From positions 310,001-374,000 of the forward strand of contig NZ_CP071446.1 of assembly GCF_017358165.1 (NCBI RefSeq): a DNA stretch of 64,000 nucleotides, given 5' to 3'. Origin of the DNA: Thermosipho ferrireducens. Its GTDB lineage: Bacteria > Thermotogota > Thermotogae > Thermotogales > Fervidobacteriaceae. The notes below the pieces were generated by a model. That model was not told the DNA's origin and did not search any database. It saw only the letters and a list, made by a program, of their open reading frames with translations. Below, one piece after another: positions 21,589-47,065 of the stretch. The position numbers and the translations under genes were made by a program. Position 1 is the first letter of the stretch, and the number at the start of each line of letters is the position of its first letter.

Positions 21589-21840
21589 GCTAATCTCGCT
21601 AACCCTCGCTAAATATAAGATTCCTCACCCTTCGGGTTCGGAATGACAGGGGTGGGTTGGAGCCCTCACCTTCTACGCTCCTCGGAATGTCAACCTTTTT
21701 TGTCATCCTGAGCGTAGCGAAGGATCTTTCTTTTTACCAACCTTGCTAACTCTCGCCAACCTCGCTAATCATAAGATTCCTCACCCTTTGGGTTCGGAAT
21801 GACATGAATGGAAGGCCAACCTCGCTGACAATATAGGAGA
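21589..21840. repeat. Repeat cluster 1: MITE-like element plus solo arms and 9-bp tandem repeats
   Basis: Gene-free stretch between glmS and the next promoter. One paired element spans 21701-21804: left arm TGTCATCCTGAGC...GAAGGATCTT, a T-rich then CTCGCTAAC-like spacer, and right arm AAGATTCCTCAC...TCGGAATGACA. Two solo right-type arms lie at about 21617-21648 and 21671-21692. Copies of the 9-mer CTCGCTAAC and variants occur at 21595-21612, about 21750-21780 and 21819-21828. Each arm can fold into its own hairpin, often with a TTCG loop. No coding potential is seen. Confidence 0.8.
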
Positions 21841-25151: not shown

Positions 25152-27164
25152 GTGAGTAACTTATCTCGAAAAAAAGTTTTTCTATTTTTATTTCTAGCTC
25201 TTGCACTTTTTGCCGCTCTACTGTACGCCACAGGAAACGCCAAAGTAAAAGCATCTACTAAGGCAGACACAAACCCCTCAGAAAATCCGAACACTAAAGC
25301 AAACTCCAGCGTTGAAAAAACTGTAAATACTCAGGAAACAACTGATACTGTAACGAATTTGTCGCTAAATGATATCATTGTAGTCGCTGGCGGGGAGGAA
25401 GGAATATTTGTCATAGATATTAGCAATCCGAAATTTCCAAAAATTGCGAAGCATCTGAACATTGATATAGAGGCTAAAAAAATCCAATTATCAGGAAATT
25501 ATGCGTATGTTACCAACAATAAAGGAAATTTTATTATAATAGATGTCTCTAACCCGAAAAATCCCGAGAAGGCTGGACAATTTGATATTGAATATAAATA
25601 CACCAGAGGATTTTATGTATCCGGAAATTATGTATACATCGCTGATAAAAACAAGGGACTTGTAATAGTAGATGTGTCTAATAAAGAAAAACCAGTAGAA
25701 ATTGGGCAAATGGATATTCGCGATGGGGGATATGGAGTTTACGTATCTGGAAACTATGCGTATGTTATTAATCCCCGCAAGGGCCTTATAATATTTAACA
25801 TTTCTGATCCAGCAAATCCAGTGGAAGTTGGGCAACTCGGCAAGTACCTGGGAAGCAGCTTGCGTCAAATCTATGTGTCTGGAAAATATGCATATGTTGC
25901 AAATGGCTCCAAAGGTCTTGAAATAATAGATGTGTCTAATATAGAAAAACCAATAAAAGTTGGCATAATTGATACCGGAACTGCACTAAAAGTTCTGGGA
26001 ACCGGGAATTTCGCATATGTTATTGATGAAAAAGAAAATTTTGTAATAGTTGATGTGTCTGATCCAGCAAATCCAGTGAAAGTTAGTAGTTTAAAGGGCA
26101 GGAAAGGTGTTACATCAAGCAAACCATTGGATTTATATATATCCGGAAATTTTGCATACATTGTTGATAAGATAGATGATCTTTTGGTCGTTGATATATC
26201 TAATCCTGAAAATCCCGCAAAAATCGGTTCCTTAAAAAATGGTTACAGTGCAAAAGATGTATATATATCTAAAAACTACGCATACGTTGCTGATGGATTA
26301 GACGGCCTTTTAGTACTGGACGTATCCAATCCAAAAAAACCTGTGAAAGTTAGTCGTTTTGATACGAAAGGGAATGCACGAAGAGTTTACATATCTGGAA
26401 AATATGCATATATCGCTGATGGTTACGAGGGCCTTGTAATAACAGATGTGTCCAATCCAAAAATGCCGAAAAAAGTAGGACATTTTCGCACTGACGATTA
26501 TGCATGGGACGTTTACGTGGTCGGAAAATATGCATATGTTGCTGCCGATGATAATGGCCTTGTAATAATAGATGTGTCTAATCCAGCAAATCCGGTGAAA
26601 GTAGGGGAAGTAAGAACAGGATATGATGCTTTAGGGGTCTATGTAGATGAAAAATACGCATATATTGCCAATTTCGATAATGGCCTTGTAATAGTAGATG
26701 TGTCTAACCCTTCGTATCCCTTCCAGATTGGAAAATATGATACTTATGGATGGTCATATGGAGTCTATGTCGACGAAAAAAGGCGTGCATATGTTGCCGA
26801 TGATGACAATGGCCTTGTAATAATAGATGTGTCCAATCCAGCAAATCCGGTAAAAATCGGATACTGGAATGATTATGGAGGCGCAAAAAAGGTCCGTATA
26901 CTTGGAAAGTATGCATACATTGCAAGTGGGCGTGCAGGACTTGTGATACTGGATGTATCCAATCCCAAAAAGCCTGTGAAAGTTAGCCGTTTTGATACAG
27001 ACGGAGAAGCAAAAAGTCTCTATGTATCTGAAAAGTATGTATACATTGCCGATGATAGTAATGGTCTTGTTATATTAGATGTATCCAACGTAAAGTCACC
27101 ATCTCTTGTTCTGGATATGCCCTGGTTGAATCTCTATGGAGTATCTGGAGCACCTGGCTTTTAA
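25152..27164 (+). CDS. Exported LVIVD-repeat protein, predicted double seven-bladed beta-propeller
   Basis: 670 residues: N-terminal hydrophobic helix (VFLFLFLALALFAALLYA), a Lys/Thr/Asn-rich linker to about residue 70, and then 14 tandem repeats of about 42 residues. Each repeat carries a motif like GLVIIDVSNPANPVKVG followed by a YVSGNYAYVAD segment. This is the LVIVD repeat found in bacterial and archaeal surface proteins. Fourteen repeats fit two seven-bladed propellers. Several repeats are very alike (8 and 13 share NPKKPVKVSRFDT; 10 and 12 share DVSNPANPVK), pointing to internal duplication. No catalytic or cell-wall-anchor motif and no lipobox are seen. Probably displayed outside the inner membrane for binding. 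Starts at GTG behind AAAGGAGG, single-gene unit with a terminator. Confidence 0.85.
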   Translation: MSNLSRKKVFLFLFLALALFAALLYATGNAKVKASTKADTNPSENPNTKANSSVEKTVNTQETTDTVTNLSLNDIIVVAGGEEGIFVIDISNPKFPKIAKHLNIDIEAKKIQLSGNYAYVTNNKGNFIIIDVSNPKNPEKAGQFDIEYKYTRGFYVSGNYVYIADKNKGLVIVDVSNKEKPVEIGQMDIRDGGYGVYVSGNYAYVINPRKGLIIFNISDPANPVEVGQLGKYLGSSLRQIYVSGKYAYVANGSKGLEIIDVSNIEKPIKVGIIDTGTALKVLGTGNFAYVIDEKENFVIVDVSDPANPVKVSSLKGRKGVTSSKPLDLYISGNFAYIVDKIDDLLVVDISNPENPAKIGSLKNGYSAKDVYISKNYAYVADGLDGLLVLDVSNPKKPVKVSRFDTKGNARRVYISGKYAYIADGYEGLVITDVSNPKMPKKVGHFRTDDYAWDVYVVGKYAYVAADDNGLVIIDVSNPANPVKVGEVRTGYDALGVYVDEKYAYIANFDNGLVIVDVSNPSYPFQIGKYDTYGWSYGVYVDEKRRAYVADDDNGLVIIDVSNPANPVKIGYWNDYGGAKKVRILGKYAYIASGRAGLVILDVSNPKKPVKVSRFDTDGEAKSLYVSEKYVYIADDSNGLVILDVSNVKSPSLVLDMPWLNLYGVSGAPGF

Positions 27165-31523: not shown

Positions 31524-32369
31524 TTATCCCTCCCATGCAAGTTCCGGTATTTTCTTTGCCACTTTTACACCTAAAGTTTTCAAACTTTTCTCTTTGTATT
31601 CTATACTTCCTCTATACCCTTCAACTATAGCACCTGCATGCCCCATTCTTTTTCCATGTGGAGCAGTCCTTCCTGCAAAAAACACCCTTATTTCTCCATC
31701 ATAACCCTTATTTAATATATACTCAATTCCCTTTATTTCATCCAGACCTCCAACTTCGCTTATTATAACTACCTTTTTTATACTTTCTTCCATTATATAA
31801 TCTAAAGCTTCTGAAAAAGATGTACCTATAATAGGATCTCCTCCCAACCCTATTCCTATTTTTATTCCCGTAGAATACAAAGACAAATAATTTGATATTT
31901 CGTACATTAATGTCCCACTCCTTGATATTACCGCAATATCCCCTGGTTTAAAAGCATTTTCAGGCATTATTCCAACTTTTGAAACTCCTGGCAAAATAAT
32001 CCCCGGACAATTTGGTCCTATTATTCTTACATTATTATCTCGTGCTTTTTTATATATATCAAGCATATCATGTTGCGGAATATGTTCTGTGATTATAACT
32101 ATCTTCTTTACGCCAGCATCTATAGCCTCAAATACTGCTTCTTTTGCATACAAGGCTGGCACGAATACAACTGAAGTATCTATATCATATTTTACAATCG
32201 CTTCCTCCATACTGTTTAACACTTCCACTCCACACACATTATCAACTTTTTTGTTTTTAGAAACGCCGCATAATATATTTGTTCCATATTTTAACATTTT
32301 TTCTGTATGTAATCTTCCATATTTTCCAGTTATCCCCTGCACACAGACTTTTTCTTTTCCATTAATCAT
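31524..32369 (-). CDS. sucD: Succinyl-CoA synthetase alpha-subunit-like protein
   Basis: 281 residues. CVQGITGKYGRLHTEKMLKYG is the CoA-binding Rossmann start, RIIGPNCPGIILPG and ISRSGTLMYEI the conserved alpha-subunit core, and the phosphorylated His lies in RMGHAGAIVEG. The enzyme interconverts succinyl-CoA plus NDP/Pi and succinate plus NTP. ATG 32369 overlaps the sucC stop by 4 bases. No other citrate-cycle gene is nearby. Other acid-thiol ligases (malate-CoA ligase, propionyl-CoA synthetase) use similar subunits, so substrate is assigned with moderate confidence. Confidence 0.85.
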   Translation of the reverse strand: MINGKEKVCVQGITGKYGRLHTEKMLKYGTNILCGVSKNKKVDNVCGVEVLNSMEEAIVKYDIDTSVVFVPALYAKEAVFEAIDAGVKKIVIITEHIPQHDMLDIYKKARDNNVRIIGPNCPGIILPGVSKVGIMPENAFKPGDIAVISRSGTLMYEISNYLSLYSTGIKIGIGLGGDPIIGTSFSEALDYIMEESIKKVVIISEVGGLDEIKGIEYILNKGYDGEIRVFFAGRTAPHGKRMGHAGAIVEGYRGSIEYKEKSLKTLGVKVAKKIPELAWEG

Positions 32370-33385
32370 CTGTCTCCCCCCTTTACCGCTTCCAGAATCA
32401 TAGAATACATATCCTCATAATAACCTATATGATTTCTTCTCAATATTCTCTTTGCCTCATGCTCATTTGTTCCCGTCAATCTTGCGTAAAGTTGAACTTC
32501 CGGATTTTCTTTTTTAAACTTAACTATTCCAGATGCTATTTCATCACATCGGGTGATTCCTCCAAATATGTTCAGCACTATTTTTTTTATTCCACAACTT
32601 TTCAATAGATTCAACGCTTCAATGGTTATGTCTTTTTCTGCTCCGCCACCGAGATCCAGAAAGTCTGCTGGTTCTCCACCGGCCAGCTTTATAGCATCCA
32701 TTGTCGCCATAACGATTCCCGCTCCACAACCTATTATTCCAATATTACCACTTAATCTTACAAAATGAAATGGATATTTATTCATCACAAACTCTTCTGC
32801 CCATTTTTGTCTAAATATCGCATTATCATCCAGATGCATCACAACATCAAGGGCATATATTTCACCTTTATCATTTTCAGCCAACGGATTTATTTCCAGT
32901 AATGTAAGATCTTTTTCTTTGAATAATTCCCCCAATTTTAGAAGAACTGTTTGTATCTTATCTGGAATAATATTTCCGAAAGTTTCAAAGTCAGTTTTAA
33001 TTACATTTTCCTTGTTTTTTTCTATATCTATACCTCCGTTTTCAGAAAATAGAATAATCACATCTCTTTCTTCTCTATCCAAGACCAGAGAAATGTAATA
33101 CTCTTTTCTCACAGCTACCCTTTCTTCAACAAGAACACCGTAAGGTTTTTCTCCCTTTATTTTTTTGTTCAATAGCGTATTTACATGTTTAAAAAATTCT
33201 TCTTCTGTTCTTGCAAAAAGCACTCCTCCAGCCTTCATTCGCCCACCAACTAAAACTTGAGATTTTAAAACAGCTGGTAAAAACTGAATTTTCACCTCTT
33301 TTTCTCTCTGAATAAGGTATGAATCTGGAACCTTAATTCCATAATCCTTCAAAATCCCTTTTCCAACGAACTCATGAACTTTCAT
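32366..33385 (-). CDS. sucC: Succinyl-CoA synthetase beta-subunit-like protein
   Basis: 339 residues with the ATP-grasp domain (MKVHEFVGKGILKDYGI at the start, VLKSQVLVGGRMKAGGV, LTLLEINPLAEND) and the C-terminal ligase domain (EPADFLDLGGGAEKD, NIFGGITRCDEIA). It is about 45 residues shorter than typical SucC (near 388). ATG 33385 follows AAGGAGGTGGATT; a longer frame from 33415 has no ribosome site and runs into the riboswitch expression region. First gene behind the cobalamin riboswitch, so the whole sucC-sucD-transporter operon should be turned down by coenzyme B12. Confidence 0.85.
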   Translation of the reverse strand: MKVHEFVGKGILKDYGIKVPDSYLIQREKEVKIQFLPAVLKSQVLVGGRMKAGGVLFARTEEEFFKHVNTLLNKKIKGEKPYGVLVEERVAVRKEYYISLVLDREERDVIILFSENGGIDIEKNKENVIKTDFETFGNIIPDKIQTVLLKLGELFKEKDLTLLEINPLAENDKGEIYALDVVMHLDDNAIFRQKWAEEFVMNKYPFHFVRLSGNIGIIGCGAGIVMATMDAIKLAGGEPADFLDLGGGAEKDITIEALNLLKSCGIKKIVLNIFGGITRCDEIASGIVKFKKENPEVQLYARLTGTNEHEAKRILRRNHIGYYEDMYSMILEAVKGGDR

Positions 33386-33414
33386 AATCCACCTCCTTAA
33401 AAAATATAAAATCA

Positions 33415-33439
33415 TCCCATTTCACCCTCGAAAATGGGA
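33415..33439 (-). promoter_or_regulatory. Expression-platform hairpin of the cobalamin riboswitch
   Basis: On the minus strand TCCCATTT / AAATGGGA form an 8-base-pair stem with a 9-base loop, just 3' of the aptamer P1 stem, followed by TGATTTTATATTTTTT and then the sucC ribosome site. It looks like an imperfect intrinsic terminator that would act when cobalamin closes the aptamer. Confidence 0.55.
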
Positions 33440-33446
33440 CTTCCCT

Positions 33447-33605
33447 GGAATTAAAGGCAGGTCTCCCGGCTTCTGGATCATCCTACTCCCAACGCCTTCC
33501 CGGGTTTCCCCAGTGGCCTCCTGTTGGTTTCGTCCCCAGTTACGGTGGCGGGGCCGCGCCGGATTTTCACCGGCTTCCCTTTTAAGATTACTCACCTTTA
33601 ATTCC
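33447..33605 (-). ncRNA. Cobalamin (adenosylcobalamin) riboswitch
   Basis: Minus-strand RNA with all main class marks: closing P1 stem GGAATTAAAGG (33605-33595) with CCTTTAATTCC (33457-33447), the segment GAAGCCGGTGAAAATCCGGC, GCGGCCCCGCCACCGT, and the B12 box AGAAGCCGGGAGACCTGCC near the 3' end. Cobalamin riboswitches usually lower expression when the ligand is present. The next gene is sucC, 62 bases after the aptamer, with a terminator-like hairpin between. The 110 bases between nrdG and this aptamer hold AT-rich promoter-like hexamers (TATAAT, TAGAAT) but no clear -35. Confidence 0.95.
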
Positions 33606-33721
33606 GGAGGTATTTAATTTTTCTTATGACTCTCCATAACTTATACATTATTCTAACAGAACTTTTCGAAAAATTATACCCATGCTAAATTATTCTATTG
33701 TGAAATATTCCGGGATAAACA

Positions 33722-36439: not shown

Positions 36440-37025
36440 ACAACCTGGGAAGACCTTAAAAGGTGGCGAATCCACTCGATATTCTGAGGAACAAAGTGCT
36501 GAAGGAGATGTCATTTTGAGGAATACAATGATGAGGGAGATTATTTCTTATTGTCATTCCGAGTGAAACGGGGAACCTTGTTTTTTACTAACTCTCGTCA
36601 ATACTCGGTAAATCAAGATTCCTCGTCGTATGCACTCCTCGGAATGACATAAAAACAGAATGCTTTTCCGAACGTATGTGAGGAATCTTGTTTTTTCTTA
36701 CCAATCTTGCTAATTTTGCCAATCTCACTAATTATAAGATTCCTCACCCTTCGGGTTCGGAATGACATGAACGGTAGATTCCTCGTCGCTACGCTCCTCG
36801 GAATGACATGGGTGAAAGCTAACCTCGCTAATCTCGCAAGATCCTTCGCACTTTGTGCTCAGGACAGGCCTTGCTAATCTTGCTAAATACAAGATTCCTC
36901 GCCCTTTATGTTCGGAATGACACCCCTTTTCCTGTCATCCCAAGGAACGAAGTGACGAGAGATCTTATTTTACCAACTCTCGCCAGATTAAGATTCTTCA
37001 TTACTGCGTTCCTCGAAATGGTAGA
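36440..37025. repeat. Repeat cluster 2: at least three MITE-like elements and solo arms
   Basis: Gene-free region between the nrdD promoter and the flgJ stop. Paired elements span 36553-36648, 36665-36766 (left arm truncated) and 36934-37020 (more degenerate). Each has a left arm GTCATTCCGA...GAGGAATCTT, a T-run, a spacer built from CTCGCTAAC/CTTGCTAAT-like 9-mers, and a right arm AAGATTCCTC...TCGGAATGAC. A solo right arm lies at 36776-36809 and a partial one at about 36891-36921. Open frames through this region are composed of repeat sequence and are not taken as genes. The stretch 36324-36440 is plain AT-rich DNA. Confidence 0.8.
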
Positions 37026-46639: not shown

Positions 46640-47065
46640 GAATCAACCTTGTCAACTCTCACTAACCTCGTTGTTCTTTGTCATCCCGAGGAACGAAGTG
46701 ACGAGGGGGATGTCATCCTGAGGAGCAGGAAGGCAAAGGAGCTTATTTTTTCCCCAACATTCGCTAACTCTCGCTAATCTCGCTAACCTTGCTAAGTCAA
46801 GATTCCTCGTCGCGTGCGCTCCTCGGAATGACACAGAAGGGGGAATTTCTCGCCTTTTTGCTTCTCGAAATGACACAGGAGAGGGTATTCTTCGTCACTA
46901 CTCTCCTTGGAATGAGCTACTCTTTTTTGTCATCCCGAGGAACAAAGTGACGAGGGATCTTTTCCTTATTGTCATTCCGAACGTACGTGAGGAATCTTAT
47001 TTTTTCCCAACTCTCGCCAGATTAAGATTCCTCATCCTTCGGGTTCGGAATGACATGGGTAGGGG
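46640..47065. repeat. Repeat cluster 3: two MITE-like elements and solo arms
   Basis: Gene-free region between the start of the minus-strand PstB-like operon and the alpha/beta hydrolase gene. Paired elements span 46680-46832 (long, with two left-type arms and at least four 9-mer units such as CTCGCTAAC) and 46971-47054. A solo left-type arm is at 46929-46961, and degenerate arms at about 46840-46875 and 46885-46915. The spacer of 46971-47054 shares CAACTCTCGCCAGATTAAG with the element at 36934-37020. From 46413 to 46640 the DNA is AT-rich with no recognisable feature beyond possible promoter hexamers. Confidence 0.8.

Follow-up and report, generated by a model that had tools for sequence, protein, structure and literature searches.

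The closest described relatives of the repeats analyzed here are the CGTC/TGTC-tagged REPs, a superfamily without an associated transposase that includes dRS3 and RPE-4/RPE-6 (Di Nocera et al. 2013, PMC3733652). CGTC-tagged REPs have been reported in five phyla, Thermotogae among them; their stem starts with complementary AT and measures 8-9 bp, with a loop of 4-5, and a CCA tail is usual but not defining. They fall into four families and occur mostly as HH dimers, often heterodimers, with the tags on the outside (PMC3733652). A second well-described class, the REPIN/RAYT systems of Pseudomonas and E. coli, consists of REP doublets moved by the TnpA-REP tyrosine transposase (Bertels and Rainey 2011, PMC3116915; Quentin et al. 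2018, PMC6006769). IS200/IS605 elements are excised from and inserted into the lagging-strand template, their orientation follows replication, and they favor termination sites (PMC5371812). Because no transposase accompanies the CGTC-tagged REPs, their mode of spread has been a standing question since 2013.

We analyzed a window of 64,000 nucleotides (bases 310,001-374,000) of the single-contig, 1,982,543-bp genome of Thermosipho ferrireducens. Its repeats resemble CGTC-tagged REPs in several ways: an unpaired TGTC tag precedes the stem in nearly all arms, the stem itself opens with AT, HH dimers are frequent and heterodimers common, and the elements are intergenic with no flanking transposase gene. 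They differ in a stem broken by a 2x2 internal loop, a CTT tail instead of CCA, common grouping into clusters and frequent placement in divergent gaps, and because of these differences we file them in the CGTC superfamily only, in none of its four families. They also differ in their 9-mer spacer arrays, replichore-dependent orientation and origin-centered density. The initial annotation knew of no description of the paired form with a microsatellite core, but among CGTC/TGTC-tagged REPs the paired form has been described as the HH dimer (PMC3733652); a search of open-access full texts for the arms by sequence string found no paper describing them. The paired hairpin plan is already known. What is new is that the copies follow the direction of replication and crowd around the inferred origin, which provides a clue to how the repeats spread. 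By combining hundreds of similar copies, the lack of a Y1 transposase, a replication-following orientation and an origin gradient, this lineage narrows the range of mechanisms and opens the question to testing.

Anatomy of the repeats in the window

Arms were found in three of the eight window gaps of at least 150 bp, 17 in total, bearing out their proposed confinement to three gaps. Each arm is an imperfect palindrome of 28-35 bp, TGTCAT-YCY...RGR-ATCTT, and opposed arms (left, TGTCATYCY..RGRATCTT; right, AAGATTCCTC..GGAATGACA) carry their TGTC tags at the outer sides. Between facing arms, a T-rich stretch 3' of the left arm is followed by 9-mers of the type YTYGCYAAY, or CTCGCTAAC-like. When one intact arm is folded, its stem starts with AT and consists of 5 + 4 bp separated by a 2x2 internal loop, closed by a loop of 3 nt. 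Variant left arms at 21701, 36933 and 46711 have stems ATCCT/AGGAT or ATCCC/GGGAT, as opposed to ATTCC/GGAAT.

The first gap holds a right-type arm, AAGATTCCTCACCCTTCGGGTTCGGAATGACA (21617-21648, plus strand), and an HH dimer composed of a left-type arm with stem ATCCT/AGGAT (21701-21728, minus), a CTCGCTAAC-like 9-mer array (21739-21769, plus) and a right-type partner (21773-21804, plus). The second gap, at 36.3-37.1 kb, begins with a decayed left-type arm that is also a weak terminator-like match (36552-36579, minus) and a right-type arm with a long loop (36615-36649, plus). These are followed by an HH dimer with a fold z of about -4, built from a left-type arm with a decayed foot (36661-36689, minus), a 9-mer array (36696-36734, plus) and a right-type arm (36736-36767, plus). 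Another right-type arm stands in tandem 7 bp past the preceding one (36775-36808, plus), and further along are a right-type arm (36891-36922, plus), a left-type arm with stem ATCCC (36933-36966, minus) and a decayed right-type arm (36990-37023, plus). A second hairpin type, AAGATCCTTCG..CTCAGGACA, is found inside 9-mer runs with conserved junctions; its window example, AAGATCCTTCG..CTCAGGACAGGCC, lies amid 9-mers in this same gap (36838-36870, plus).

In the third gap, a truncated left-type arm (46680-46710, minus) stands in tandem with a left-type arm of stem ATCCT (46711-46744, minus), followed by a 9-mer array (46757-46797, plus) and a right-type arm (46799-46833, plus). A left-type arm with stem ATCCC (46928-46961, minus) precedes the best-preserved dimer (46970-47055), in which a left-type arm with stem ATTCC (46970-46998, minus) faces a right-type arm (47024-47055, plus) and the fold z relative to shuffled DNA is about -7 on both strands.

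All six copies that the initial annotation had listed as complete are present at roughly the proposed positions, with opposed arms, a T-rich stretch and 9-mers, and its view of the repeats as opposed, individually palindromic and MITE-like (mobile, non-coding) is supported. The single plan it drew from them is nevertheless an idealization, because the gaps also hold extra arms, tandem arms 8-10 bp apart and the second hairpin type; the number and order of copies vary from gap to gap. Similarly, the 9-mers do occupy the spacers, but as a “microsatellite” the array is weak, with 2-4 imperfect copies, and it occurs outside dimers too. The Neisseria intergenic mosaic elements, in which RS repeats are flanked by dRS3, are likewise clustered short repeats with GTCATTCC-type palindromes at either end. 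The core of those elements is different, and we know of no replication polarity for them.

Copies across the genome

The string TTCGGAATGACA occurs 71 + 71 times in the genome, compared with 0 + 0 for the reversed control, and the strict hairpin pattern 351 times, again with none for the reversed control. These copy numbers place the repeats beyond chance. The architecture was assessed in 55% of the genome, made up of the window and a set of 20-kb stretches; an initial detector with looser criteria for arms was discarded because shuffled DNA yielded nearly half as many matches. Overall, this sample contained 377 main-type arms. Only 15 (4%) stood alone, so that the arms are not mostly solitary, but just 165 (44%) had an inward-facing partner within 150 bp. 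The remaining 197 had only other neighbors, forming tandems spaced by 8-10 bp or standing back to back. Among the 57 inward-facing neighbor pairs, 48 had 9-mers between the arms.

The repeats are strongly intergenic: two of 271 strict arms fell inside ORFs of at least 150 aa, though 82% of the sample is coding. The proposed placement next to promoters or operon ends turned out not to be specific, as divergent, convergent and tandem gaps all bear arms (divergent 0.63, convergent 0.55).

Orientation by replichore and density around the inferred origin

We located the origin and terminus from the third-position GC skew of 811 ORFs, fitted together with gene strand and without using the repeats. 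By this fit, replication would start at 570-580 kb and end at 1.55-1.58 Mb (R2 0.62, versus 0.29 for the best fit with the origin at 0); dnaA lies at genome positions 404-886 (0.4-0.9 kb), about 570 kb away from this inferred origin. The orientation of the 9-mer (CTCGCTAAC) arrays was +61/-14 in the left replichore and +5/-46 in the right (p=2.6e-16), and counting by 500-bp clusters gave 40/11 versus 3/26 (p=3e-9). Between 575 and 880 kb, there were no exceptions among 21 array clusters. The direction of the neighboring gene is irrelevant, the bias being equal whether the adjacent genes are co-directional with the fork (28:5) or head-on to it (20:4). Five arm subtypes each show the replichore bias as well (p 1e-3 to 4e-6). 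The fraction in the expected orientation was 0.78 for the real 9-mer, compared with a mean of 0.54 for random permutations; the few permutations near the real value are probably rotations of the tandem motif. Asymmetric dimers are thus oriented by replichore, which is a new finding.

The density of arms is centered on the inferred origin. Within 100 kb of it, we counted 110 (left) and 55 (right) arms per 100 kb, and past 500 kb, through most of the far half, the density dropped to almost zero. Since some stretches had been picked where matches were known, we also checked the complete plus-strand match list, in which 52 of 71 occurrences lie in the origin-proximal half (p=1e-4). Polysaccharide-type gene blocks, duplicated at 97-100% identity, are also located around the inferred origin, at about 571-599 kb.

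Occurrence in other bacteria

Querying 84,980 species genomes with nothing but the right arm recovered at least 119 stretches, where about one chance match is expected by our own estimate. Carriers among the matches listed belong to about 14 phyla, which widens the range of TGTC/CGTC-tagged REPs from the five reported phyla to about fourteen. An opposed left arm, recognized by its feet only, was present within 120 bp upstream of 73 of 134 right arms, compared with 5 of 330 control places and 11 downstream. The stems covary: the three bases adjoining the feet were exact complements in 58 of these 73 pairs, whereas shuffled partners gave 16 on average and 26 at most (1000 shuffles). The general hairpin was found in all 37 carriers tested, in up to 422 copies, and the reversed control in none.

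Within the phylum, the distribution is patchy. Just six of 103 genomes contain the strict pattern (351 copies in the T. ferrireducens genome and 22, 13, 11, 2 and 1 in the others), and among the 19 further family members 17 are without it. The 9-mer core is a lineage trait; two other genera have 9-mer-like arrays beside dimers. The same repeats occur in a block of accessory genes common to genera, which was probably transferred. Accessory islands with ATPase_2/DUF234, MatE, GH38 and AAA_21 genes in two other genera match 560-634 kb of the T. ferrireducens genome at 74-97% identity, and REP dimers are seen in many gaps of these islands. The shared islands raised the idea that the arms are companions of DUF4143/DUF234 ATPase genes, which was rejected because there are just a handful of such genes. 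No clean empty site was seen in the alignment of the island common to the two other genera.

We also compared repeat polarity with local GC skew in 44 stretches (8 kb) of other phyla. This crude and weak test showed no bias (26:18, p=0.29), whereas the same test applied to the T. ferrireducens genome gave p=0.003; the link to replication may therefore be peculiar to this lineage.

How the repeats may spread

We consider it about an even bet (probability roughly 0.5) that the repeats are TGTC-tagged REP dimers, members of the CGTC superfamily in the broad sense, that are non-coding, spread via single-stranded DNA at the replication fork and have expanded in this genome. Such small non-coding repeats would spread both within and between genomes. 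Each arm is an ssDNA or RNA hairpin whose feet (TGTCAT..ATCTT) are constant while its stem covaries freely, and two arms, often different, face each other across a spacer that in this lineage holds degenerate CTCGCTAAC 9-mers. Single-stranded DNA at the fork would be the route of insertion or copying, and copies would take a single polarity with respect to fork movement, with GTTAGCGAG presumably on the lagging-strand template. The enzyme responsible would not be a resident TnpA-REP, or would since have been lost.

The single-strand model was chosen because an orientation that follows replication is a known mark of IS200/IS605 elements (PMC5371812). Like these and their palindrome-only derivatives (PATEs), the repeats have hairpin ends and an orientation tracking replication direction; unlike them, they come with no tnpA or tnpB and are origin-proximal rather than terminus-proximal. 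They would thus behave as an IS200/IS605-type, lagging-strand-coupled non-autonomous element, a description that does not imply membership of IS200/IS605. Because IS200/IS605 elements favor termination sites, the origin-centered gradient is not explained by the single-strand model in its present form; higher gene dosage close to the origin might be added to account for it, as might gene conversion between copies lying near the origin. A broader version, in which one many-phyla family of TGTC/CGTC-tagged REP dimers is copied via fork ssDNA in fixed polarity by non-Y1 machinery, seems doubtful to us, if worth weighing. If it holds, the present genome, with its origin-centered burst, would be a system for catching that machinery.

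The alternative that survives best, though we regard it as unlikely, is a selected chromosomal signal, in which the polar 9-mers, together with the hairpins, have a function in replication or segregation (compare KOPS, Chi and origin-proximal condensation sites) and selection keeps their orientation. The strict polarity near the origin and its indifference to gene direction agree with such a role. However, the repeats are missing from most sister genera of the family and patchy across phyla, their copy number and order differ from gap to gap, and they are densest near the origin, unlike KOPS.

Movement by a TnpA-REP tyrosine transposase, as in REPIN/RAYT systems, appears improbable. The architecture equals that of REP doublets (PMC3116915), with two opposed hairpins, a spacer of tens of bases and a non-autonomous, intergenic character, and Y1 proteins are encoded by 28 of the 39 other carrier genomes searched. 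Yet the foot is TGTC, not GT[AG]G, with the GTAG foot absent, and the remaining 11 of the 39 have no Y1 match. The initial annotation had suggested looking for a TnpA-REP/Y1 transposase that recognizes the arms; the T. ferrireducens genome has none. Arms were no commoner than expected near the 50 Y1 loci taken from other carriers, which matches the lack of association between CGTC repeats and transposase genes found by Di Nocera et al. 2013 (PMC3733652). TnpB and reverse transcriptase are also absent from the T. ferrireducens genome, which, with no Y1 either, therefore offers no candidate enzyme. Tyrosine recombinases were rejected as movers (just two genes, no cassette-array signature), as was carriage by phages or plasmids (only 9 viral contigs; an 89-bp dimer had no plasmid or phage match).

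We judge it still less probable that the repeats act at the RNA level, as intrinsic terminators or mRNA-stabilizing hairpins. Their intergenic placement and the T-rich stretch after the left-arm hairpin fit this role, but the T-run begins several bases past the stem, and the 36.3-37.1 kb gap yielded a single weak terminator match. Moreover, arms are as frequent in divergent as in convergent gaps, and their orientation is independent of neighboring gene direction.

MITEs of a resident DDE insertion sequence with outer ends TGTCAT..ATGACA, a reading favored by the inverted ends, TG..CA termini and non-coding, multicopy nature of the repeats, are very improbable. Two resident multicopy elements turned up in the 55% of the genome that was sampled, one IS21-like and the other IS5-like, and the ends of neither resemble the arms. 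No target-site duplication was seen, no insertion sequence ending in a TGTCAT hairpin was found in the flanks read, and the stems covary, unlike what is expected of a fixed terminal repeat.

Further observations

The IS21-like element, about 2.13 kb long with TGTAAA ends, has near-identical copies at 553.2, 797.0, 1499.7 and 1746.8 kb, and an additional IstB-like match lies at 1275.7 kb. In two other genera, an end of the IS21-like kind was found within a REP-dimer spacer.

Two other features of the window were noted. ORF 25152-27164 contains a tandem repeat at 26525-26879, with a unit of about 126-129 bp, 2.6-2.8 copies and 68-69% matches. A Cobalamin riboswitch (RF00174, 122 bits) lies on the minus strand at 33439-33614, upstream of the leftward ORF 32366-33415.
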